Shown here: piece after piece, positions 18,198 to 31,258 of the stretch
How the letters are laid out: every line of letters begins with the position of its first letter
How positions within the stretch are numbered: position 1 is the first letter of the stretch
NCBI GenBank assembly: GCA_030836535.1
Contig: JAURPT010000094.1
Span: 1 to 38,598, forward strand
Source of the DNA: Alphaproteobacteria bacterium
GTDB lineage: Bacteria; Pseudomonadota; Alphaproteobacteria; SMXS01
DNA: 38,598 bases
Direction of reading: 5' to 3'
Position numbers and translations under genes: made by a program
Notes under the pieces: model-generated
Told to the model about the DNA's origin: nothing
What the model saw: only the letters and a program-made list of their open reading frames with translations
The model's database searches: none

Positions 18198-18311
18198 GGC
18201 TGTGTGCTCACTGTCGTCCGGCTGTGAATCGCGACCCTTGCGAGACGCGGCTGTTTCAGGGCAAAAAGATATAGTCAGAGGTTGGTCTTCACGCAAGACA
18301 GGGGAGGGTCC

Positions 18312-19514
18312 GTGAGCCGCTTTAACCGTTTCAGGAAGAAACCGGAAAATATGTTGTTGCTGATGGCCGTTGGCGTGCCATTGAGCTTCGACGTCTGGCG
18401 CACGCTGCTTAACAATTTTGCCATTGAACGGGTTGCCTTTACTGGCGATCTGATCGGCATTTTGCAGAGCCTGCGCGAAGTGCCTGGCTTCCTGGTTTTT
18501 ACGGCAATTTTCGTCCTGTTGCTCATCCGGGAACAACGCTTTGCCGTGCTGGCACTGGCAACCATGGGGCTTGGCACGGCGCTGACAGGCTTTTTCCCCA
18601 GCGTCTACGGGCTTTATTTTACCACCATCATTATGAGCATCGGCTTCCACTATTTCGAGGCGGTTCAGACATCGCTATCTCTGCAATGGCTGCCCAAAGA
18701 ACGCGCGCCGGTTGTTATGGGACGGCTTATCAGTGTGGGGGCTTTTGGTGGGTTGGTGACGTTCGGGTTCATCTACCTGGCGTATGACACCCTGAAACTT
18801 GATTTCACCTGGCTGTATTTGATTGGCGGTGGGGCGACGATGATGGTGGCTTTTGCAGCCTATAGCCTGTTTCCCAGGTTCGAGAGCCACACAGCCCAGC
18901 GCAAAACCATTGTGCTGCGTAAACGCTATTGGCTCTATTATGCGCTGACCTTTATGGCAGGGGCGCGGCGGCAAATCTTCGTTGTCTTCGCCGGCTTTAT
19001 GATGGTCGAGCGCTTTGGCTTTGCGGTGCACGACATGGCGTTGCTGTTTTTAGCCAATGGGGTGATGTCGATGCTGCTGGCACCGCGCATTGGCAGGCTG
19101 ATTGCCTATTGGGGTGAACGCAAATCACTAACAGTGGAATATATCGGGCTCATTGCGGTCTTCCTGGGCTATGCCTTCGTCGGCAGCGCAGAGATGGCCA
19201 TCTTCCTCTTCATTCTCGACCACGTGTTTTTCGCCATGGCGATCGCCATCAAAACCTATTTCCAGAAAATCGCAGACCCGGCAGATATTGCCTCAACCGC
19301 CAGTGTTGGGTTTTCCATCAACCATGTGGCAGCTGTCGTTATTCCCGCCGTTTTTGGGCTGATCTGGATGGTGGCACCATCCATGGTCTTCTTCTTGGGG
19401 GCAAGTATGGCGGCGGTATCATTGATGCTCTCTCGCCTCATTCCGCCCAACCCGGAACCGGGGGCGGAAGTCTATTGGCCGGGGCGCCTGCAGGGGGCAC
19501 CCGCAGGCGAATAG
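18312..19514 (+). CDS. Major facilitator superfamily transporter
   Basis: This 400-residue protein is a polytopic inner-membrane transporter. Ten to twelve hydrophobic segments can be traced, with a half-break around residues 190-208 (basic loop AQRKTIVLRKRY). A motif-A-like loop occurs in the second half (GRLIAYWGERKS, 261-272), which supports the MFS call. The start is the GTG at 18312 after GGGGAGG; a TTG at 18282 would add 10 residues with a poorer site. It is divergent from the M17 aminopeptidase (114 bases between). The substrate is unknown; peptides, sugars or drugs are all possible. It does not look like AmpG, which is larger with 14 segments. Confidence 0.8.
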   Translation: MSRFNRFRKKPENMLLLMAVGVPLSFDVWRTLLNNFAIERVAFTGDLIGILQSLREVPGFLVFTAIFVLLLIREQRFAVLALATMGLGTALTGFFPSVYGLYFTTIIMSIGFHYFEAVQTSLSLQWLPKERAPVVMGRLISVGAFGGLVTFGFIYLAYDTLKLDFTWLYLIGGGATMMVAFAAYSLFPRFESHTAQRKTIVLRKRYWLYYALTFMAGARRQIFVVFAGFMMVERFGFAVHDMALLFLANGVMSMLLAPRIGRLIAYWGERKSLTVEYIGLIAVFLGYAFVGSAEMAIFLFILDHVFFAMAIAIKTYFQKIADPADIASTASVGFSINHVAAVVIPAVFGLIWMVAPSMVFFLGASMAAVSLMLSRLIPPNPEPGAEVYWPGRLQGAPAGE

Positions 19515-19539: not shown

Positions 19540-19559
19540 ATTGTGCAGGAGTGCACAAT
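19540..19559. promoter_or_regulatory. Perfect inverted repeat, candidate operator of the ACAD cluster
   Basis: Two perfect 8-base arms, ATTGTGCA (19540-19547) and TGCACAAT (19552-19559), are separated by GGAG. The site lies 75 bases before the acyl-CoA dehydrogenase ATG and after the MFS stop, where a promoter should be. The TTGT...ACAA arrangement is compatible with a GntR/FadR-type or MarR/TetR-type repressor site; no regulator gene is in the window. A TTGATA (19528-19533) is nearby but has no well-placed -10 partner. Confidence 0.55.
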
Positions 19560-19633: not shown

Positions 19634-20923
19634 ATGGCCTGGGACTTTGAAACAGACGCCGAATATCAAGAAAAACTCGACTGGGCAGCAGACTTTGTCC
19701 GTGAAGAAGTGCAGCCCCTGCAGTTCGTTATTGACCACGCGCTCGACATGAAAGACCCTCTGCGCAACAAGCTGATCAAGCCCTTGCAGGAAAAGGTTAA
19801 AGAAAAAGGCCTGTGGGCCTGCCATCTCGGCCCCGAACTCGGCGGCCCGGGTTATGGTCAGGTCAAGTTGGGCCTGCTGAACGAAATTCTCGGCGGTGCA
19901 GGCTTTGCTCCTGTCGTGTTCGGCTGCCAGGCACCGGATACAGGTAATGCCGAAATTCTCGCCCATTACGGTACGGAAGAGCACAAGGAAAAATACCTTA
20001 AGCCACTGCTGAACAATGAAATCTGCTCCTGCTTCTCCATGACGGAGCCGCAGGGCGGCGCTGACCCCAAAGTCTTCAAAACCACTGCTGTGCTGGAAGG
20101 CGATGAATGGGTCATTAATGGTGAAAAGTGGTTTTCTTCCAACGCCCGCTGGTCAGAATTCCTGATCGTGATGTGCGTCACCGAACCGGATGCCGCACCC
20201 TATAACAAGATGTCCATGATCATCGTGCCGACCAACACGCCGGGTGTGAACATCATCCGCAATGTCGGCGTTGGTGAGGAGGAAGAAGGCAGCCACGCCT
20301 ATATTCGCTACGAAAATGTGCGCGTACCGGCCGAAAACATTCTCGGTGGTCGCGGTGAGGCCTTTGCCGTGGCCCAGACGCGACTGGGCGGTGGGCGTAT
20401 TCACCACGCCATGCGCACCATTGGTCAGGTTCAAAAAAGCTTCGACATGATGTGCGAACGCGTGCTGTCTCGTGAAACGCAGGGCGAACTTCTGGCCAAG
20501 AAGCAGATGGTGCAGGAAAAGATCGCCGATAGCTGGATGGACATTCAGCAGTTCCGTCTGCTGGTGCTGCAGACCGCCTGGAAGATCGACAAATATCAGG
20601 ATTATCTGATGGTCCGTAAGGACATCGCGGCCGTGAAGGCTGCCATGCCGCGTGTCTTCCATGATGTTGCTGCCCGTGCCCTGCAGATCCACGGTTCACT
20701 TGGCGTGTCTGGTGAAATGCCGTTCTCGCGCCAGGTGATTGAAAGCTTCCATATGGCACTGGCCGATGGCCCGACGGAAGTGCACAAGGTGACCGTCGCC
20801 CGTCAGGTGCTGCGCGATTACAATGGCACGAATGGTATGTTCCCGACTCGCCACATTCCGGCACTGCGGGAAGAGGCCATTAAGCGCTTTGCCGATGTCA
20901 TTGAAGATGCCGTGAACGCCTAA
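19634..20923 (+). CDS. Acyl-CoA dehydrogenase, ACAD10/11 or LvaC-like
   Basis: This FAD enzyme of 429 residues belongs to the acyl-CoA dehydrogenase fold: an N-terminal helical domain, the flavin segment CFSMTEPQGGADP (133-145), the middle beta domain with VINGEKWFSSNA, and a C-terminal helical domain with QIHGSLGVSGEMP. At the usual position of the catalytic Glu (YEGT in short- and medium-chain enzymes) it has LADGPTEVHK, with Asp378. The DGPxEVH form is that of ACAD10/ACAD11 and the bacterial LvaC group. Those enzymes act with a kinase domain that phosphorylates a hydroxyacyl-CoA, and a matching kinase is encoded two genes downstream. The start at 19634 follows a strong AGGAGGG; the upstream extension is ignored. 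Confidence 0.92.
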   Translation: MAWDFETDAEYQEKLDWAADFVREEVQPLQFVIDHALDMKDPLRNKLIKPLQEKVKEKGLWACHLGPELGGPGYGQVKLGLLNEILGGAGFAPVVFGCQAPDTGNAEILAHYGTEEHKEKYLKPLLNNEICSCFSMTEPQGGADPKVFKTTAVLEGDEWVINGEKWFSSNARWSEFLIVMCVTEPDAAPYNKMSMIIVPTNTPGVNIIRNVGVGEEEEGSHAYIRYENVRVPAENILGGRGEAFAVAQTRLGGGRIHHAMRTIGQVQKSFDMMCERVLSRETQGELLAKKQMVQEKIADSWMDIQQFRLLVLQTAWKIDKYQDYLMVRKDIAAVKAAMPRVFHDVAARALQIHGSLGVSGEMPFSRQVIESFHMALADGPTEVHKVTVARQVLRDYNGTNGMFPTRHIPALREEAIKRFADVIEDAVNA

Positions 20924-20951
20924 GGCGCTCACCCAGCGGAGGAGGAAAGAC

Positions 20952-21848
20952 ATGGCGAATATGCCAGCCTTGACCATTGTGGCTACACCTGGCCGTCGTC
21001 AGAAGATGATCGATTTGGCAGTAGAAGCCGAAGAACGCGGCTTTAAGGGCATCTATGTGCCCAGCCTGTCGGCACTTATGCCGTTTTGCCAGGCGCTGTT
21101 GTCTGCGACCAAAAAGATCTGGGTCGGCACAGCCATCCAGCCAATCTATGTGCAGCATCCGCGGGAGCTCGCGGCCACAGCCGCCTTCCTTCACGAGATG
21201 TCCGAAGGACGTTTTCGCATGGGCCTGGGTGTGTCGCACGCCCCGGTTTATGACCGGCTAAACCTGAATGTCGGCAAGCCCTTGTCTGACATGCGCGATT
21301 ATGTTGCCGGCATGCGGGCGCAGGAAGATGTCGGTGAATTGCCGCCGATCATCCTGGCCACTTTGCGCAACAAGATGCTCACCATGTCGGGCGAGATTGC
21401 CCAGGGCGCCATCTGGGCCAATGGTGCGCGGTCTTATGTGCCGGGCCAGCTGGCAGCCACAGGCGTTACGCCGGGGGATGACTTCTTTGTCTCCAACATG
21501 CAGCCCACAGTGGTTGATGAAGACCGTGACGCCGCAGGCGCTGTCCACAAGCGGACGCTGACCGGCTATTTGATGTTGCCGAACTATCGCAATTACTGGC
21601 GTGAAGCCGGTTATGCGGACGGCATCGACCGGGTAGAGGCCTCATTGGCTGCAGAAGACGGCGCCTTTTTGCCGGACCTGATGAGTGACGACTGGCTTTC
21701 AGACGTCACGCTTTATGGGTCCGCAGATTATATTCGCGATGAAGTGCAAAAGAGCCTGGACCATGGCATCACGCCTATTCTGGTGCCATCATCAACCTCG
21801 GGCGGTATGTCCAAGGGTATAAGGGAAGTCTTCGACGTCTTTGCCTAG
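20952..21848 (+). CDS. LLM-class (luciferase-like) flavin- or F420-dependent oxidoreductase
   Basis: This 298-residue protein has the bacterial luciferase-like TIM-barrel fold seen in F420-dependent reductases and FMN monooxygenases. Family landmarks are AEERGFKGIYVPS near the start, IWVGTAIQPIYVQHPRELAATAAFLHEMSEGRFRMGLGVSH in the middle, and NGARSYVPGQLAA. Overall it resembles the F420-dependent LLM group more than two-component monooxygenases, but cofactor cannot be settled by eye. It has a strong GGAGGAGG ribosome site and lies 28 bases after the dehydrogenase gene and 31 bases before the kinase gene, so it belongs to the same operon. Its step in the pathway is unknown. A Ddn-like F420-type protein is encoded about 1.2 kb further on. 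Confidence 0.88.
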   Translation: MANMPALTIVATPGRRQKMIDLAVEAEERGFKGIYVPSLSALMPFCQALLSATKKIWVGTAIQPIYVQHPRELAATAAFLHEMSEGRFRMGLGVSHAPVYDRLNLNVGKPLSDMRDYVAGMRAQEDVGELPPIILATLRNKMLTMSGEIAQGAIWANGARSYVPGQLAATGVTPGDDFFVSNMQPTVVDEDRDAAGAVHKRTLTGYLMLPNYRNYWREAGYADGIDRVEASLAAEDGAFLPDLMSDDWLSDVTLYGSADYIRDEVQKSLDHGITPILVPSSTSGGMSKGIREVFDVFA

Positions 21849-21879
21849 GCGCCGACGGGGAAATTAAAGAGAACACATA

Positions 21880-22956
21880 ATGGCAGATGAACGTACAGTA
21901 TCCGCAGGTGAAACAGTTGACGTGGCAGAACGCCACCAGTTCGAGGTCAAAAACCTCGAACGGTTTATGGAAGAACATGTCGAAGATTTTCGTGGCCCAC
22001 TAACCGTGGGCCAGTTTGCCGGTGGGCAATCCAACCCCACCTATAAGCTCGAAGCCCCTTCTGGTGAATATGTGCTGCGCCGCAAACCGCCGGGAACATT
22101 GCTTAAGTCGGCCCACGCGGTGGACCGTGAATATCGGGTGATGAAAGCCCTGAACCAGACGGATTTCCCCGTGCCGCATATGTGCGCCTATTCCGACGAT
22201 GAAAGCATTGTGGGGACTGAGTTCTTCATCATGACCTTCATGCCGGGCCGTGTGTTCTGGGACCCCACCATGCCAGACGTGGCCAAGGGTGACCGCACCA
22301 AGATGTATGACTCGATGAACGAGACCTTGGCCAAGCTTCACTCTTACGACTACAAGGAGTTGGGCCTTGAAGGCTATGGCAAGGAGGGCAATTATATTGC
22401 CCGTCAGATCCATACCTGGACTCGGCAATACAAGAATTCTGAAACCCAGCAGATTGATGAAATGGACGCCCTCATAGAGTGGCTGCCTGCTCATAACAAT
22501 ACGCCGGATGAAACCCGCATCGTGCATGGCGACTATGCCCCACATAATGTGATGTTCCACCCGACCGCACCGCGCGTTCAGGCGGTGCTGGACTGGGAAA
22601 TTTCAACCCTGGGCAACCCGATTGGCGACCTGACCTATAACACCATGAACTGGTACGGCCCAGCTACCTCAACCGGCCGCCCGAACTTCTCCGGTGTTGA
22701 TCTGGACTCGCTCGGCATTCCATCATTCGACGACTACATTGCCAAATATTGCGAACGCACGGGGCGCGACGGCATTGAGAACATCCACTTCTACAAGGCC
22801 TATAATCTGTTCCGTCTGGCGGCCATTCTGCAGGGCATTGTTGGCCGCGTGCGCGACGGCACAGCCAACGACCCGAATGCCGCCCAGAACGCCGCCCGCG
22901 TTATCCCGCTGGCCCAGCGCGCCTGGGAAGAAGCCCAGCTGGCTGAAAAAGGCTAA
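21880..22956 (+). CDS. Aminoglycoside-phosphotransferase-fold kinase, ACAD10/11 N-domain or LvaA-like
   Basis: This 358-residue protein has a small-molecule kinase fold: a glycine-rich loop GGQSNPTY (48-55), the nucleotide-binding segment YVLRRKPPG (64-72), a catalytic loop HGDYAPHNVM (216-225, Asp218 and Asn223) and the metal site LDWE (Asp238). It is not likely to be a resistance enzyme. The same fold is fused to acyl-CoA dehydrogenase in ACAD10/11 and is LvaA in the Pseudomonas levulinate pathway, where it phosphorylates 4-hydroxyacyl-CoA. Here the kinase and dehydrogenase are separate genes of one operon. The small LvaB partner needed by LvaA is not seen. A terminator follows 14 bases after the stop. 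Confidence 0.9.
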   Translation: MADERTVSAGETVDVAERHQFEVKNLERFMEEHVEDFRGPLTVGQFAGGQSNPTYKLEAPSGEYVLRRKPPGTLLKSAHAVDREYRVMKALNQTDFPVPHMCAYSDDESIVGTEFFIMTFMPGRVFWDPTMPDVAKGDRTKMYDSMNETLAKLHSYDYKELGLEGYGKEGNYIARQIHTWTRQYKNSETQQIDEMDALIEWLPAHNNTPDETRIVHGDYAPHNVMFHPTAPRVQAVLDWEISTLGNPIGDLTYNTMNWYGPATSTGRPNFSGVDLDSLGIPSFDDYIAKYCERTGRDGIENIHFYKAYNLFRLAAILQGIVGRVRDGTANDPNAAQNAARVIPLAQRAWEEAQLAEKG

Positions 22957-22970
22957 GGGCCAGCGGCATA

Positions 22971-23009
22971 AATGAAAAGGGCTCGGCTATTCGCCGGGCC
23001 CTTTTCATT
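22971..23009. terminator. Long bidirectional terminator hairpin
   Basis: The 17-base arms 22971-22987 and 22993-23009 pair completely except for one G-T pair, around a 5-base loop. Each arm begins with AATGAAAAGGGC or its complement, so either strand gives a GC stem flanked by A and T runs. It sits between convergent genes (kinase and Ddn-like) and should end both transcripts. Confidence 0.85.
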
Positions 23010-23034
23010 TGGGGTAGGTTCTCTGATCAGCTGA

Positions 23035-23490
23035 CTAGGCTTTCTCCAGCACCACCACGGGGATTTCGCGGCCCTGTGCCTTTTCAACATAGTCGTTATA
23101 GCCGGGGTTCATGGTGGCCATCATGTCCCATAGTTTCTGGCGTTCTTCACCCTCAGTAATGCGGGCGGTGGCGGCAAATTGGTCGGGCCCAACCATCACG
23201 GCGACATTGGGGTCGGCCTCCAGGTTCAAATACCAGGCAGGGTGCGTGGGCGCCCCGGCCTTGGAGGCAATGATCACATATCCCCCATCGGCTTCTCCAT
23301 AGACCAACGGCAGGGTTATGGCCTTGCCAGACTTGCGGCCTTTGGTGACCAGAAGCAGCGCCGTCATGGGTGGGCCATCTCGGCCTGGCATCTGCCACAG
23401 ATGGCCATCTTCACCATTGCTGTCGAGATATTCCTTCACATGGCTGCTGATGAAATCTGGCAGGTGGTCGGGGACGGAAAATTCCAACAT
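23035..23490 (-). CDS. Ddn-like deazaflavin (F420)-dependent oxidoreductase
   Basis: This small split-beta-barrel protein (151 residues) belongs to the family named after mycobacterial Ddn, the F420H2-dependent nitroreductase/quinone reductase. The diagnostic stretch is TKGRKSGKAITLPLVYG followed by DGGYVIIASKAGAPTHPAWYLNLEADP (about residues 49-93), which lines the F420 site in characterised members. The start ATG at 23490 has a GGAG site about 6 bases upstream. It is the last gene of a minus-strand run, 9 bases after the MDR reductase. In a proteobacterium this family hints that F420 or a similar deazaflavin is made, though some members bind other flavins. Confidence 0.9.
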   Translation of the reverse strand: MLEFSVPDHLPDFISSHVKEYLDSNGEDGHLWQMPGRDGPPMTALLLVTKGRKSGKAITLPLVYGEADGGYVIIASKAGAPTHPAWYLNLEADPNVAVMVGPDQFAATARITEGEERQKLWDMMATMNPGYNDYVEKAQGREIPVVVLEKA

Positions 23491-23499
23491 GAGACTCTC

Positions 23500-24522
23500 C
23501 TAGTCGTTGACGCGGACAATGCGCTTGCCGCGGTTTTCACCGGCCAACAGGCCGATCAGCGCATCGGGGACATTCTCAAATCCATCGACGATATCTTCCA
23601 GCACATGGATTTTGCCGGCATCCACCCATTCCTTCAGCTGGTTGATGGCATCGGTACGGGTGCCGACGGACGAGCCTGCAAAAAAGTCTGAGACGATAAA
23701 GCCACGCATGGTCAGTCGTTTGACCACGAGCAGGCCAGGCACGCCGCGCGGGCCCGCCTGTGGCGGGGCGCCATCATAGCTTGACACCGCCCCGCAGCAG
23801 GAAATGCGGCCATAAATGTTCATCTGGAACAGGGCGGCCTCCAGAATTTCACCGCCCGTATTGTCGAAATAACAATCGATGCCGTTCGGGCAGGCTTCTT
23901 TCAGGTCCTTGAACACGCTGCCATTGCGATAGTTCACCGCGGCATCAAAGCCTAATTCATTCACCAGCCAGTCGCATTTTTCGTCGCTGCCTGCCGTGCC
24001 AACGACGCGGCAGCCTTTGATCTTGGCAATCTGGCCCACGATGGTGCCCACGGCACCAGCGGCTGCAGAAACCAATACGGTTTCGCCTGCCTTGGGTTGG
24101 CAAATCTCCAGGAAACCGAAATAGGCGGTCAAGCCGGTGACGCCATAGATGCTGAGCAGATGCGTCTTGGGTTCAATATGGGGCTGCTTCTGACACACAC
24201 TGCCGGGCAGAGCCGCATATTCGCGCCAGCCCCCATCGGCGGAAATCAGATCGCCTGCTTGAAAATTTGGATCATTGGATTCTAAAACCTCGCCGAGAAT
24301 GCCGCCTGCCATTACCTGGCCGCCTTCAATGGCATCGCGATAGGTTGCGCCCTGCATCCAGGCGCGGTTGGCCGCGTCGAGCGAGATGTAGCGTGTTTTG
24401 ACCAGAATTTCCCCGTCCCCCGGCGTAGGGATGGGGGCTGTCTCCAGCTTAAAATTGCTGTTGGTCAGTTTTCCCTGCGGAATTTCCGCCAGCACAAATT
24501 GGCGCATTTCGTTTGATGACAT
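23500..24522 (-). CDS. Zinc-free MDR-type NADP-dependent oxidoreductase (CurA/PTGR-like)
   Basis: This 340-residue medium-chain reductase resembles CurA, leukotriene B4 dehydrogenase and related enone reductases, which reduce alpha,beta-unsaturated ketones with NADPH. It starts MSSNEMRQFVLAEIPQGKLT at an ATG (24522) with strong GGAGGGG; an upstream extension is discarded. The family landmarks are ISLDAANRAWM (47-57), MAGGILGEVLES and the nucleotide-binding motif AAAGAVG (153-159). No catalytic zinc ligands are present. It is followed 9 bases later by the Ddn-like gene, so both probably act on the same substrate or detoxification task. Confidence 0.92.
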   Translation of the reverse strand: MSSNEMRQFVLAEIPQGKLTNSNFKLETAPIPTPGDGEILVKTRYISLDAANRAWMQGATYRDAIEGGQVMAGGILGEVLESNDPNFQAGDLISADGGWREYAALPGSVCQKQPHIEPKTHLLSIYGVTGLTAYFGFLEICQPKAGETVLVSAAAGAVGTIVGQIAKIKGCRVVGTAGSDEKCDWLVNELGFDAAVNYRNGSVFKDLKEACPNGIDCYFDNTGGEILEAALFQMNIYGRISCCGAVSSYDGAPPQAGPRGVPGLLVVKRLTMRGFIVSDFFAGSSVGTRTDAINQLKEWVDAGKIHVLEDIVDGFENVPDALIGLLAGENRGKRIVRVND

Positions 24523-24573
24523 TCTTCCCCTCCATAAACGGGTCATGTGACCCGGTAAATCCTTGTTGAGCCA

Positions 24574-25834: not shown

Positions 25835-26977
25835 TTAACTCATGGCCTGTTCATACAGCACGGGGAAGTCCTCCGGCGTTACAGGCTTGGAATTGGAGAA
25901 GTTGCAGACGTCCTTGGCGGCATGCTCCACCAGGAAGGGGAAGTCGTCTGTCGTTACGCCCATTTCGGCCAGATTAGCGGGCAGACCGATATCGGCATTC
26001 AACTGCTCAATATAATCTGCCAGATCAGTGCTTTCGGGCACGCGCATGGCTTCGCGGATACGGGTGTATTTCTCCTGTACGCCGGGTGCATCGGCATTAA
26101 AGCGTAGCAATGTCGGCAGGAAAATTGCGTTCAGCGTGCCATGGTGCAATTGCAGATACGGCAGCGCACCGCAAGCATGGCTCATGGAATGAACGGTGCC
26201 TAACCCCTTTGTAAAGGCCAGCGCGCCTTCGGTGGAGGCCATCATCATATTCCACCGGGCATCGCGGTCAGACCCATCGGCCACGGCGGCCTTGAGCGCG
26301 CCATCGCCCAGCGACCGGCGCAACCCGTCCAGCCCCACGGCTTCTGCAGGCGGGTTCACCGCTGGAGAGAGCACGGCTTCAATACAATGGGTGACCGCGT
26401 CCATGCCAGTGGCCGCCGTTAGCCGTGCGGGCAGGCCCAGGGTTAACTCCGGGTCGCAAATGGCGGTGCGGGGCACCAGATTGTCGCTGGCGAAGATCAG
26501 CTTTTCGCCATTGTCCATAATCACAACGGAGCCGGTGGAAACCTCGCTACCCGTACCTGCAGTGGTGGGGATGGCCACTAGAGGCGCCACTTCGCCAATG
26601 GCGTCTCGCCCGCCAATACCGGCGGTATATTGCATGAAGTCGCCTTCATGGGTAACGCGCAGGGCCACGCCTTTTGCAAGGTCGATGCTCGAGCCACCAC
26701 CGACGGCCAGCACACCGTCACAGTCATTTTCGGTATAGAGGCTGGCGGCTGCTTCAATGGCGCTCTGTGTCGGGTTTTCAGGTGTGCCGTCAAAAATAGT
26801 GGTGGCGATGTCGTTGGGAATGACGCCACGGATTGTGTCAATAACGCCGACATCCACCAGGCCTTTGTCGGTGCATAGCAAGGGGCGCATGATACCATGC
26901 TGTTTGAGTGTGCCCGCCAGGTGCTGGATGGCCCCGAAGTCAAATTCGGTCGTATTCCGGAAGGTTAAAGTCGCCAT
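25835..26977 (-). CDS. Iron-containing (group III) alcohol dehydrogenase
   Basis: This 380-residue NAD(P)-dependent enzyme interconverts alcohols and aldehydes or hydroxyacids and oxoacids. The nucleotide site GGGSSIDLAKG is at 93-103, the family motif IPTTAGTGSEVS at 136-147, and the metal ligands are Asp193 and His197 (GMDAVTH), His263 (TVHSMSH, with His267) and His279. All four are present, so it should be active. The start is an ATG at 26977 with GAGGG about 11 bases upstream. It is the first gene of a minus-strand run of five and is divergent from the HMGCS-like gene, with which it may share a regulatory region. Substrate unknown. Confidence 0.93.
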   Translation of the reverse strand: MATLTFRNTTEFDFGAIQHLAGTLKQHGIMRPLLCTDKGLVDVGVIDTIRGVIPNDIATTIFDGTPENPTQSAIEAAASLYTENDCDGVLAVGGGSSIDLAKGVALRVTHEGDFMQYTAGIGGRDAIGEVAPLVAIPTTAGTGSEVSTGSVVIMDNGEKLIFASDNLVPRTAICDPELTLGLPARLTAATGMDAVTHCIEAVLSPAVNPPAEAVGLDGLRRSLGDGALKAAVADGSDRDARWNMMMASTEGALAFTKGLGTVHSMSHACGALPYLQLHHGTLNAIFLPTLLRFNADAPGVQEKYTRIREAMRVPESTDLADYIEQLNADIGLPANLAEMGVTTDDFPFLVEHAAKDVCNFSNSKPVTPEDFPVLYEQAMS

Positions 26978-27105
26978 AATCTGTTTTCCCTCTAATTCCC
27001 CAAGACGTTGACCGCCGAGCTTAACCGGGAATGGTTTATTGCGCTATGGGGCATTATTGCCTAACAATTTGGCTCATATTTCAAGCGACTCAGGAGGGCA
27101 AACAG

Positions 27106-28554
27106 GTGACACAATCCGTCGGTATTACGGCCTATGGGGCTTATCTGCCGCGCCTGCGGCTCGACCGGGCCAGTATTGCCAAGGCCCACGCCTGGGCCAT
27201 GCCGGGCCTGCGCGGCCAGGGCGAGGGCGAACGCTCTATGGCTGACTGGGATGAAGACGCCATCACCATGGCGGTTGAGGCCGCCCGGGACTGCCTGCAG
27301 GAAACCGACCGCAGCAGCATCACTGGGGCCTACCTGGCATCGACGACATTGCCCTTTGCCGACCGGCAGAATGTTGGCGTTGTTGCCTCCGCATTGAACT
27401 TGGGCCGCAACATCAAGTCGATGGATATTGCCGGCTCCATGCGGGCAGGCACGTCCGGGCTGATTGCGGCATTGCGTGGCGCAGGCCAGGGAACAACGCT
27501 ATTTGCAGCCGCTGACGCCCGCAAGGCCAAGCCCGCCAGCACCAATGAGTTTCAGTATGGCCATGGTGCTGCCGCCCTGATGCTAGGCAGCGAAGGTATT
27601 GTCGCGACCTTCTTGGGCTCCAACACGGTGACGGCAGACTTTGTCGACCATTTCCGCGGAGCGGGGGAAGATGAAGACTACGCGTGGGAAGAACGCTGGG
27701 TGCGTGACGAAGGCTATATGAAAATTGTGCCCGAGACCGTCCAGGGCTTGCTGGATGAAACAGGTGTTGCCGCTGGCGATATCGACCACTTCATCATGCC
27801 CTGTACCATGGGTCGGGTGGCCAGCGGTGTTGCCAAGCGGCTTGGTATTAATGATGAGGCTCTGCGTGACAATCTGGCCGCCAATGTAGGTGACACGGGC
27901 GCGGCCCATGCCATCCTGATGCTGGCTCATGCACTGGAAGACGCCACACCGGGTCAAAAGATATTGCTGGTGCAATTTGGCCAGGGCGCTGATGCATTGT
28001 TGTTTGAGACGACAGACGCGCTGTCCAGCCTGCCAGCCCGTAAGGGTGTTGCCGGGGCCATTGCGCGCGGTAAGACCGAGACGGAATATATGAAGTTTCT
28101 CTCGTTCCAGGATCAGGTCTCTATCGACTTTGGTATGCGAGCCGAGGTCGATAATAAAACGGCTCTGTCGACGGAATATCGCAAGAAGGACATGGTCACC
28201 GGCTTTATGGGCGGGCAGTGCTCGCAGTGTGGCACGGTGCAATATCCGCGCACGCTGTATTGCGTGAACCCAAACTGCAAGGCGCATGATAGCCAGGAGC
28301 CTATCTCCTTCGCCGATGTGCCGGCGGCTGTGATGTCCTACACGGCCGACTGGCTGTCCTACAGCCCCAGCCCGCCTTACTATTATGGCCAGGTTCAGTT
28401 TGAAAATGGTGGTCGGGTGCTAATGGGCTTTACCGATGTTGACCCGGAAGACATCGCGGTGGGCACCTCGCTAAAGATGGTGTTCCGCATCAAGGATTTT
28501 GATAAACAAAGAGGGTATCGCCGTTATTTCTGGAAAGCGGCACCCGCTGCATAG
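27106..28554 (+). CDS. HMG-CoA-synthase-like protein fused to a DUF35 zinc-ribbon/OB domain
   Basis: The 482-residue protein joins a thiolase-fold HMG-CoA-synthase-like part (about 1-350) to a C-terminal DUF35 part: zinc ribbon Cys372, Cys375, Cys386, Cys391, then an OB fold that binds CoA in known cases. At the place where HMG-CoA synthases carry the nucleophilic Cys (archaeal form ACKAGT) the sequence is SMRAGT (111-116), and there is no Cys between residues 64 and 232. Classical condensation is therefore unlikely. The GTG start at 27106 has AGGAGGG in front. It is followed by an SCP2-type thiolase gene 34 bases later, a pair that resembles the archaeal thiolase-DUF35-HMGCS complex and steroid side-chain thiolase complexes. 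Confidence 0.88.
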   Translation: MTQSVGITAYGAYLPRLRLDRASIAKAHAWAMPGLRGQGEGERSMADWDEDAITMAVEAARDCLQETDRSSITGAYLASTTLPFADRQNVGVVASALNLGRNIKSMDIAGSMRAGTSGLIAALRGAGQGTTLFAAADARKAKPASTNEFQYGHGAAALMLGSEGIVATFLGSNTVTADFVDHFRGAGEDEDYAWEERWVRDEGYMKIVPETVQGLLDETGVAAGDIDHFIMPCTMGRVASGVAKRLGINDEALRDNLAANVGDTGAAHAILMLAHALEDATPGQKILLVQFGQGADALLFETTDALSSLPARKGVAGAIARGKTETEYMKFLSFQDQVSIDFGMRAEVDNKTALSTEYRKKDMVTGFMGGQCSQCGTVQYPRTLYCVNPNCKAHDSQEPISFADVPAAVMSYTADWLSYSPSPPYYYGQVQFENGGRVLMGFTDVDPEDIAVGTSLKMVFRIKDFDKQRGYRRYFWKAAPAA

Positions 28555-28588
28555 AACTGAAAAGTTTGTTAGCGAAAGGAGTTCTAAG

Positions 28589-29788
28589 ATGGCTCGAGGC
28601 ATTAAAGACAAGGTCGCCATTATTGGCATGGGCTGCTCATCATTTGGTGAGCGCTGGGATTGTGGCGCGGAAGAATTGATGGTCGAAGCGTTTGAAGAAG
28701 CGCTGGGCGATGCCGGTATTGACCGCTCGCAGATCGAAGCTGCCTGGTTCGGCACGGCGTTCGACAAGGTCCATGTCGGTGGCTCTGCCTTGCCCATGGC
28801 CACAACGCTGCGTCTGTCGGGCATCCCGATCACGCGCGTTGAAAATATGTGCGCCACAGGCACCGAAGCCCTGCGTGGGGCGGCCTATGCCGTTGCCTCT
28901 GGCGCGGCGGACATCGCGGTTGCAATGGGTGTCGAGAAGCTGAAAGACACGGGCTATGGCGGGCTTCCTGCGGGGTCCAAAGGCACATTGCCGGACCTGT
29001 GGGTACCCAATGGCTCTGCGCCAGGTAACTTCGCGCAGCTGGCGACGGCCTATTCGGCCAAGCATGGCATTTCAAGCGAAGATGTGAAGCAGGCCATGGC
29101 GCATGTTTCATGGAAGAGCCACCAGAACGGCGCCAAGAATGAAAAGGCGCATCTGCAAAAGGCCGTGACGATGGACACGATCCTCGGCGCGCCGATGATT
29201 GCTGAGCCGCTCGGCCTATTCGATTGCTGCGGCGTGTCTGACGGTTCTGCCTGTGCGATCCTGACAACGCCAGAGATTGCCAAGGCCCTCGGCAAAACGG
29301 ACATCATCACCATCAAGGCGCTGCAGCTGTGCCTGTCAGACGGTGTGGAAGCCAGCTTCAATTCCTGGGATGGTAGCCATTTCGCCACCACCCGCGTCGC
29401 TTCCAAAAAGGCTTATGAAGAAGCCGGTATCAAGAACCCACGTGAAGAAGTCTCGATGTTCGAGGTGCATGATTGCTTCTCCATCACCGAATTGGTGACG
29501 ATGGAAGATTTGTATATCTCTGAAGAAGGTGGTGCGGTCCGCGACATTCTCGACGGCTTTTATGATGCCGATGGCGGCGTCCCCTGCCAAATCGATGGCG
29601 GGCTGAAATGTTTCGGCCACCCCATTGGCGCATCGGGCCTGCGCATGGCTTATGAGATGTATCTGCAGTTGCAGGGCAAGGCGGGCGAACGCCAGCTCAA
29701 GGACCCGCGCATTGGCATGACGCATAATCTCGGTGGCGCCCCCCACAATAATGTGGCGGCTGTTGCCGTGATTGGCCGTATGGATTAG
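28589..29788 (+). CDS. SCP2/SCPx-type thiolase
   Basis: This 399-residue acyl-CoA C-acyltransferase cleaves or forms beta-ketoacyl-CoA. Catalytic residues of the SCP2-thiolase group can be seen: Cys88 in ENMCATGTEAL, His294 in FEVHDCFS and His344 in FGHPIGASG. The C-terminal motif reads NLGGAPHNNVAAV (380-392), without the second Cys of classical thiolases, as is common in this group. The ATG at 28589 is preceded by AAAGGAG; upstream residues overlapping the previous gene are not used. It forms an operon with the DUF35 fusion, which probably gives it a CoA-binding partner. Confidence 0.92.
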   Translation: MARGIKDKVAIIGMGCSSFGERWDCGAEELMVEAFEEALGDAGIDRSQIEAAWFGTAFDKVHVGGSALPMATTLRLSGIPITRVENMCATGTEALRGAAYAVASGAADIAVAMGVEKLKDTGYGGLPAGSKGTLPDLWVPNGSAPGNFAQLATAYSAKHGISSEDVKQAMAHVSWKSHQNGAKNEKAHLQKAVTMDTILGAPMIAEPLGLFDCCGVSDGSACAILTTPEIAKALGKTDIITIKALQLCLSDGVEASFNSWDGSHFATTRVASKKAYEEAGIKNPREEVSMFEVHDCFSITELVTMEDLYISEEGGAVRDILDGFYDADGGVPCQIDGGLKCFGHPIGASGLRMAYEMYLQLQGKAGERQLKDPRIGMTHNLGGAPHNNVAAVAVIGRMD

Positions 29789-29851: not shown

Positions 29852-31258
29852 TTAGTCGCTGTCCGCCAGATATTTATCCAGCGTTTGGTGCAGGTGGCGG
29901 ATGCGGATTTCCTGGTAGTTCAGCAGTGTCTCACCCGGTTTGCGGCTGGCGTGGAAGCCTTCCTGCTGGGCGCGCAGATTGCCCGTATCCTGATCGTAAA
30001 CATGCCCCAATATCGGGTCAAAGCCCGGTACGGTGGTAAAGCTCTCTTCTTCCTTCAGGCGGATGGGCTCCGCAGGTGCGGGTCGGGGCCCAGCGTCTGG
30101 CACAGGCCGCAAAAAGACGATTTCGAACAAAGACCGTTCCGGGTGGTTTCCGATGGGGCGGAAGCGATACATCATCGGCAGTGAAAGCTGCGGGAAGGCA
30201 ATGGCATTGGGGAACAGGCCATATTGCGACACGTCGATCATCTCTGTGTCTGTATAGCGGGACAGGTCCACGCCATAGGCTTCACCGAGCTGGCGGCGCA
30301 GCACGCGGGCCATGACAACACGAGCGCTTTCGCCTTCCTTGACGATGACATCATCCCCCAGCAGCGACCGGTCGCCCGTCAGGGTCTGGTCTACCAGTTC
30401 CTGTTCGCTCGGGCGCGGATCGATTAGCCTACTGGGCACGCCAAACAGGCAGAAAAAGCGGGTTACGTGATCCCCCAACACGTCATATTGGGTGCCTTCA
30501 TCATCGCTGCCCAGCAGCAATTGCGGGTGGGTTTCCTGCGTATGGTAGTTCTCGACAAAGGCCTCTTTGGCGGCCTTCCAATTGCAGGCCAGTTCTTTTT
30601 CGATATGCAGTTCGACATAGCGGTCTTCCAGCCGGAAGTTCTCCAGATGCTCGGGCGTGGGCGCGATATAATCTGCCAGCGGGCCGGCATCTTCATCGAA
30701 GTTCACAAAAACAAACCCTCCCCAAATATCGACGCTGATTTGCGGTAGGGAGAAATCCCGCTCCTTAAGGTGCGGGACGTCCCAGTCATAGGGCACGCGT
30801 TCCAGCGCACCCGCCAGGCTCCATGTCCAGCCGTGAAAGGGGCAGCGGATTTCGTCCATGCCGCCACAATCGCTACCGGGTCGAAACTTTGTGCCCCGGT
30901 GCAGGCAGGAATTGGCGAAGGCTTTGAGGCTCCCATCTTCCTGGCGCACGATGAGGGCCGAATGTGGGCCAATGTCATAGACATAGTAGTCGCCGGGCTC
31001 TGGAATATGTTCTTCGCGGCATGCCCATTGCCAGACGTTGGGCCACATGTCTGTCATTTCACGTGCAAAGAAGGCCGGGTCGAGATAGCGCGAAAAGGGA
31101 ATGTCCTCGTCGCCGAGAAAGCGCGGTTGTTCCGTCTCGAACACGGGCGGTACGGGGCGGCCCTCAGCGCGCAAAATCTCCTGCGCCGACGGGCTCTGCC
31201 GGCCCTTCGTCAGGAAATCGAGCGAGTTTTTGTTATGGTCATGGTCAGCCAATGTCAT
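29852..31258 (-). CDS. Rieske-type ring-hydroxylating oxygenase, alpha subunit
   Basis: This 468-residue protein has an N-terminal Rieske domain binding a 2Fe-2S cluster (Cys118 and His120 in CLHRG; Cys139 and His142 in CPFHG) and a C-terminal catalytic domain with mononuclear iron ligands His239 and His244 in ENYHTQETH. Such enzymes oxygenate aromatic, steroid or quaternary amine compounds with electrons from a reductase; no reductase, ferredoxin or beta subunit is in the window. The ATG at 31258 directly abuts a GGGGGG tract, too close for a ribosome site; a TTG two codons later (31252) would have six bases of spacing and may be the true start. It is divergent from an SDR gene. Confidence 0.9.
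   Translation of the reverse strand: MTLADHDHNKNSLDFLTKGRQSPSAQEILRAEGRPVPPVFETEQPRFLGDEDIPFSRYLDPAFFAREMTDMWPNVWQWACREEHIPEPGDYYVYDIGPHSALIVRQEDGSLKAFANSCLHRGTKFRPGSDCGGMDEIRCPFHGWTWSLAGALERVPYDWDVPHLKERDFSLPQISVDIWGGFVFVNFDEDAGPLADYIAPTPEHLENFRLEDRYVELHIEKELACNWKAAKEAFVENYHTQETHPQLLLGSDDEGTQYDVLGDHVTRFFCLFGVPSRLIDPRPSEQELVDQTLTGDRSLLGDDVIVKEGESARVVMARVLRRQLGEAYGVDLSRYTDTEMIDVSQYGLFPNAIAFPQLSLPMMYRFRPIGNHPERSLFEIVFLRPVPDAGPRPAPAEPIRLKEEESFTTVPGFDPILGHVYDQDTGNLRAQQEGFHASRKPGETLLNYQEIRIRHLHQTLDKYLADSD

Follow-up and report, generated by a model that had tools for sequence, protein, structure and literature searches.

What does a bacterial operon do in which an acyl-CoA dehydrogenase (ACAD) and a kinase, both reminiscent of ACAD10/11, are separated by the gene of a luciferase-like (LLM) oxidoreductase? 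Such a triad of genes lies at positions 19634-22956 of the window, i.e. the whole stretch of 38,598 nucleotides that was analysed (contig JAURPT010000094.1 of assembly GCA_030836535.1, from an alphaproteobacterium of the GTDB group SMXS01). We consider it reasonably probable that the three genes make up a split ACAD10/11-type module in which an LLM enzyme, very likely dependent on cofactor F420, may serve the 4-oxo/4-hydroxy step.

The genes for the ACAD (19634..20923, + strand, 429 aa), the LLM oxidoreductase, probably F420-dependent (20952..21848, + strand, 298 aa), and the APH-fold kinase (21880..22956, + strand, 358 aa) are all intact and co-directional. Their products belong to the Pfam families Acyl-CoA_dh N/M/C, Bac_luciferase and APH, respectively. 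The intergenic gaps are 28 and 31 bp, in agreement with the initial annotation, which had placed an LLM-type enzyme between the other two with close spacing. Good Shine-Dalgarno sequences precede ACAD (GGCAGGAGGGAACC-ATG) and LLM (GGAGGAGGAAAGAC-ATG), that of the kinase being weaker. Right after the kinase stop codon there is a stem-loop terminator (22974..23010, no strand assigned) with a near-perfect stem of 19 bp and a predicted energy of -31.7 kcal/mol, common to the triad and to the convergent gene; therefore, the three genes very probably form one transcription unit ending 3' of the kinase. A perfect palindrome, ATTGTGCAGGAGTGCACAAT (ATTGTGCA-GGAG-TGCACAAT), occupies positions 19540-19559, 75 bp 5' of the ACAD start; the genome has a single copy of it, even when one mismatch is allowed, and relatives lack it, so that it was rejected as a conserved operator.

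The best solved matches of the ACAD were 4hr3, ACAD11 (8v3u/8v3v) and 2wbi, mouse and human ACAD11 being among them, and those of the kinase were 3dxp (Ralstonia) and the ACAD11 kinase domain; thus, the label 'split ACAD10/11' given at first was apt. The identity of the ACAD to ACAD11 is about 40%, and its residues R250, H258, R261 and D378 align with R626, H634, R637 and D753 of mouse ACAD11. Mutants of ACAD11 have shown that the first three of these are needed for phosphate elimination, D753 being the catalytic base (PMC12440821). The ACAD motif DGPTEVH and the kinase motif HGDYAPHNVM, both read earlier from the letters, are indeed present: the base D378 lies within LADGPTEVH, with Asp in place of Glu, and the catalytic Asp and Asn of the kinase lie within HGDYAPHN. 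In the ACAD motif RLGGGRIHHAMR, Ala stands at the position of ACAD11 Cys635; the complete HCMR is replaced by HAMR in the window ACAD, in nearly all of its closest branch and in 4hr3.

This branch, which we call clade B (SH-aLRT support 99), is sister to the ACAD11-like branch and stands apart from the ordinary ACADs that served as outgroup. A forced placement of the window ACAD inside the ACAD11-like branch was rejected by the approximately unbiased (AU) test (p 0.00019). The Arg/His/Arg set and the Asp base are kept in every clade-B ACAD aligned, whereas ordinary ACADs of the same alignment lack them. The same genome encodes four more ACAD10/11-like ACADs, on contigs C25, C115, C120 and C140 (34-41% identity to the window ACAD); HCMR is found in those of C25 and C115, YGMR occupies the same place in that of C120, and the motif of the C140 protein could not be typed in its broken frame (one TAG).

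The kinase carries the Arg equivalent to R176 (aligned by number) as well as an Arg adjoining the alpha-C Glu (identified by its position next to this Glu). In the kinase tree it grouped with the ACAD11 kinase domain and 3dxp (SH-aLRT 99). A choline or homoserine kinase, the outcome that the first reading had set against its own proposal, was thereby ruled out. Membership in the LvaA clade was rejected as well: with DUF6285-linked kinases from other organisms standing in for LvaA of Pseudomonas putida, the window kinase showed about 18-20% identity to these proteins, which form a distant separate branch.

The initial annotation had taken the absence of the LvaB partner as the mark of a variant system. 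This claim did not survive. The LvaB family, DUF6285, was seen only beside LvaA-type kinases (L101, L154, L155 and L162) and never beside ACAD10/11-type or clade-B kinases in the loci examined; it is found neither in the window nor adjoining any triad. As DUF6285 accompanies LvaA-type kinases only, its absence is expected for a kinase of the ACAD10/11 type and is no variant trait. The genome does have a DUF6285 gene elsewhere, as had been thought worth checking; it is situated on contig C42, beside the genome's own LvaA-like kinase. Mammalian ACAD10/11 have been described as bifunctional, performing both steps (PMC12440821, PMC11342911).

Contig C168 of the same genome (L100, 601-3205) holds another kinase of the ACAD10/11 type (43-46% identity to the window kinase), next to an ACAD of the ordinary type, with a Glu base and without the phosphate-binding Arg/His/Arg. 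Some 4 kb upstream of this pair there is an open reading frame (ORF) which we take, by eye, to be methylmalonyl-CoA mutase-like. The ACAD at the LvaA/DUF6285 locus of Sulfitobacter (L154) is of the same ordinary type.

Considering clade-B ACADs elsewhere (Caulobacter sp. FWC26, Massilia putida, Variovorax, Rhodococcus, Streptomyces, Novosphingobium and genome G190), we saw that the kinases beside them mostly belong to other subfamilies, which share only about 23-31% identity with the window kinase. Placing the triad kinase within the main clade-B kinase subfamily was rejected (AU p 0.0002), and the AU tests, run on the ACAD tree as well as on the kinase tree, speak against a common origin of triad ACAD and triad kinase. 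As the tests exclude both the ACAD from the ACAD11-like branch and the kinase from the clade-B kinases, the two proteins have different histories: the triad has exchanged its kinase partner and joins an ACAD of clade B to a kinase of the ACAD10/11 type. In alphaproteobacteria, betaproteobacteria and actinobacteria alike, unrelated loci show the pairing of ACAD and kinase as such. Furthermore, a short-chain dehydrogenase/reductase (SDR) gene stands directly beside ACAD and/or kinase in seven of the 18 clade-B loci outside the family of the triad (L145, L149, L150, L153, L159, L161 and L173). At L145 (genome G190) it lies between the two genes, in exactly the position that LLM has in the triad. 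Four of the seven SDRs are closely related (49-66%); beside the triads of the family itself no SDR was found.

The LLM gene was present in all 10 family genomes searched, with the order and direction ACAD-LLM-kinase in each, although the contig of G001 stops inside LLM, so that the kinase is not covered there. Identity to the window proteins among the family triads was 78-90% for ACAD, 54-73% for LLM and 68-73% for the kinase. Since order and direction are identical throughout, the triad is more than a chance association; the word 'inserted', used at first for LLM, is better replaced by 'fixed' between both genes family-wide. No close ACAD or kinase was adjacent to LLM homologues in 80 loci from named genomes (Acidimicrobiia, Chloroflexota, Gamma- and Alphaproteobacteria and others, the family genomes' own named copies being set apart), and no triad was present in seven genomes from outside the family that have a 57-62% identical ACAD. 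The triad is, then, a fixed feature of one alphaproteobacterial family, with no example seen outside it. The LLM tree is compatible with the triad LLMs (those of g1 and of g2/g3) having arisen once, as this was not rejected (AU p 0.51).

The predicted structure of LLM (mean pLDDT 94) had F420 enzymes as its top fold matches in the PDB: Mer (methylene-tetrahydromethanopterin reductase) and PepI, then Fgd and the F420-dependent secondary alcohol dehydrogenase; identity to solved F420 enzymes was only 14-21%. The genome encodes the F420 ligase CofE and a fused FbiC frame of 832 aa. Among 289 alphaproteobacterial genomes, an F420 ligase is present in 52, and these include all of the 21 with LLM; the Fisher p-value of this co-occurrence is about 4e-18 by genome and 2e-13 by genus, uncorrected for relatedness. 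In genome G099 a distance of about 3 kb separates LLM from the gene of the F420 ligase. On the grounds of fold matches, host F420 genes and co-occurrence, F420 is very likely the cofactor of LLM. The 'unknown redox step' ascribed to this enzyme in the initial annotation is thus narrowed, although not to the point of proof.

For kinase and ACAD together, phosphorylation-elimination of a hydroxyacyl-CoA, as proposed at first, is likely by homology to characterised enzymes and is the best reading, given the phosphate-binding residues and Asp base of the ACAD and the place of the kinase in the ACAD10/11 clade. The ketone reductase of the lva pathway is the SDR LvaD. In that pathway, the 4-oxo acid levulinate gives rise to 4-hydroxyvalerate ahead of phosphorylation. 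A kinase and an ACAD of Burkholderia pseudomallei can each substitute for the respective ACAD10 domain, and the ACAD mechanism, acting at C2/C3, has been proposed to expel a leaving group from C4 (PMC11342911). The latter makes a 4-hydroxy substrate the expected one: the substrate is most likely a hydroxyacyl-CoA and, with less certainty, its hydroxyl is at C4.

In the proposed pathway, LLM with F420 would convert 4-oxoacyl-CoA to 4-hydroxyacyl-CoA, a task that elsewhere would fall to LvaD-like or operon SDRs; the kinase, with ATP, would phosphorylate the hydroxyl, most likely the one on C4, of a hydroxy acid bound to CoA; R250, H258 and R261 of the ACAD would hold the phosphate, D378 would take the C2 proton and, with FAD used transiently, phosphate would be expelled, leaving a 2-enoyl-CoA that can enter beta-oxidation. 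The role of LLM in 4-oxo/4-hydroxy interconversion in place of an SDR is suggested by the SDR position in related loci and by the chemistry, and we put it forward tentatively, at somewhat less than even confidence. One could further speculate on an F420-linked catabolism of 4-hydroxy acids, in which LLM in the role of an NAD(P)-dependent SDR, a swapped kinase and a substrate supplied by a Rieske oxygenase would have become a family-fixed module of three enzymes; this larger picture is rather doubtful.

Several observations speak against the pathway as drawn. The ACAD has HAMR for HCMR and Gly for the flanking Pro, and phosphate elimination is a predicted activity of its clade. LLM scored 113.5 bits against a cut-off of 219.8 for TIGR03620, the nearest NCBIfam F420 subfamily. 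In a smaller genome set, no F420 ligase turned up in G007, which has the triad, and in two other triad genomes (G006 and G009) the ligase was cut by contig ends. The SDRs were present in just seven of the 18 related loci, and their putative replacement by LLM is read from gene position. One could suppose that LLM acts after the elimination, the kinase and ACAD reaction being the same: with F420H2 it would reduce an enoyl-, dienoyl- or enone-type intermediate, or else it would act on another part of the same larger molecule (such as a terpenoid or a steroid side chain). Activated C=C bonds are often reduced by F420H2-dependent enzymes, and the neighbours of the triad, a reductase of the alkenal/enone type from the MDR family and a DDN-family protein, suggest unsaturated-carbonyl chemistry. 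All six g2 and g3 loci with enough flank have at least one Rieske oxygenase gene upstream of the triad, and at L054 a TonB receptor gene stands between the Rieske gene and ACAD, which suggests uptake and oxygenation of a hydrophobic compound. However, the SDR partners of related loci point to alcohol/ketone redox, and in g3 an apparent terminator between the Rieske gene and ACAD weakens the case for a Rieske gene on the triad transcript; we regard a post-elimination role of LLM as unlikely, though it is the chief alternative.

Another scheme is a two-component LLM monooxygenase dependent on flavin mononucleotide (FMN), whose product, hydroxylated or cleaved, the kinase would take as its substrate. 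In Rhodococcus sp. ZPP and R. opacus PD630, FMN-type LLMs together with flavin reductase do occur near pairs of ACAD and kinase; yet the neighbourhood of the triad yielded no flavin reductase, F420 enzymes lead the fold matches and, among the Alphaproteobacteria sampled, LLM is confined to F420-ligase genomes, which makes this scheme very unlikely. We think it highly improbable, too, that an ordinary fatty acyl-CoA dehydrogenase is linked incidentally to a kinase for an unrelated small molecule. Such linkage would be in line with contig C168, where the pairing involves an ordinary Glu-base ACAD, and both enzyme activities are deduced from residues and trees; on the other hand, the window ACAD has the Arg/His/Arg set, the Asp base and a well-supported branch of its own, and its pairing with a kinase is a recurrent one. 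Also to be noted are the LLMs of other subfamilies (F420-type and FMN-type) near kinase/ACAD pairs at L163, L164, L165 and L159, on Rhodococcus and Streptomyces plasmids; two of them are accompanied by flavin reductase, and LLMs are abundant there, so that chance is possible.

Kinase and ACAD pairs for hydroxyacyl-CoA are already known from lva and ACAD10/11. The triad shares with ACAD10/11 (of mammals, with split orthologues, e.g. in B. pseudomallei) the kinase clade, the phosphate-binding residues, the Asp base and the kinase-ACAD pair; it differs in having separate genes, an ACAD of the sister clade with HAMR, and LLM between ACAD and kinase. With LvaABC of P. putida (catabolism of levulinate and 4-hydroxyvalerate) it has in common the logic of kinase plus ACAD, with a 4-phosphoacyl-CoA intermediate, and we propose LvaD, the upstream ketone reductase, as the counterpart of LLM; in contrast to LvaABC, the triad kinase is outside the LvaA clade, there is no adjacent DUF6285 and no acyl-CoA ligase in the unit, and the putative redox enzyme is an F420-type LLM rather than an SDR. 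The ACAD-kinase-SDR modules of Caulobacter sp. FWC26, M. putida, Variovorax sp. PDNC026 and G190 have ACADs of the same clade (58-61% identity), whereas their kinases are of another subfamily (26-31% to the window kinase) and their redox partner is an SDR. LLM resembles the F420-dependent LLMs (Mer, PepI, Fgd, Adf and TIGR03620) in fold and in co-occurrence with F420 biosynthesis, but falls under the cut-offs of named subfamilies and differs in its ACAD/kinase operon context.

In the open-access literature, neither this combination nor phosphoacyl-CoA intermediates beyond lva and ACAD10/11 were found described. What is new is clade B, together with the exchange of the kinase and an LLM of the F420 type fixed between the two genes; the origin of ACAD and kinase from different clades, F420 as likely cofactor and the SDR as frequent partner in related loci go beyond the initial annotation. 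The chemistry of ACAD10/11 was explained only in 2024-2025, and the counterpart reported for bacteria is the lva operon, along with close orthologues. We see now a second, deeply separated ACAD clade in which the phosphate-binding residues are retained and pairing with a kinase is widespread, kinases having been swapped between clades, and one lineage that has probably coupled the pathway to F420. Small separate bacterial enzymes should make FAD-dependent phosphate elimination, as well as partner specificity of kinase and ACAD, easy to test.

Upstream of the triad, after a gap of about 120 bp, is a transporter of the major facilitator superfamily (18282..19514, + strand), whose conservation (82%) does not extend beyond the genus. 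The convergent gene downstream (23035..23490, - strand) encodes a member of the F420H2-dependent quinone reductase/deazaflavin-dependent nitroreductase family, a second probable F420 protein at the locus. It is followed by an MDR-family (medium-chain dehydrogenase/reductase) gene similar to curcumin reductase and leukotriene B4 12-hydroxydehydrogenase (23500..24546, - strand), with a homologue (68-69%) downstream of the triad also in genus g2. An iron-containing alcohol dehydrogenase at 25835-26977 (- strand), 3 kb from the triad, scored 480.7 bits against 500 for the 4-hydroxybutyrate dehydrogenase equivalog and is possibly related to the supply of a 4-hydroxy acid. Next, at 27031-29788 (+ strand), come an HMG-CoA synthase-like/DUF35 fusion and a thiolase (PRK06157 equivalog), reminiscent as a pair of the thiolase/OB-fold genes adjoining clade-B ACADs in Rhodococcus (L148 and L164).

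A Rieske oxygenase alpha-subunit-like protein is encoded at 29852..31258 (- strand), 7 kb from the triad; its homologues (45-50%) are among the genes upstream of the triad in g2 and g3, and another Rieske gene is situated near the LvaA/DUF6285 pair of contig C42. In four of the five g3 loci (L103, L052, L057 and L091) the gene directly 3' of the triad kinase encodes MeaB, the methylmalonyl-CoA mutase chaperone. This neighbour hints at the use of propionyl-CoA; it may be a housekeeping gene instead, since a conserved ORF of 103 residues comes next, by eye presumably an L28-like ribosomal protein.

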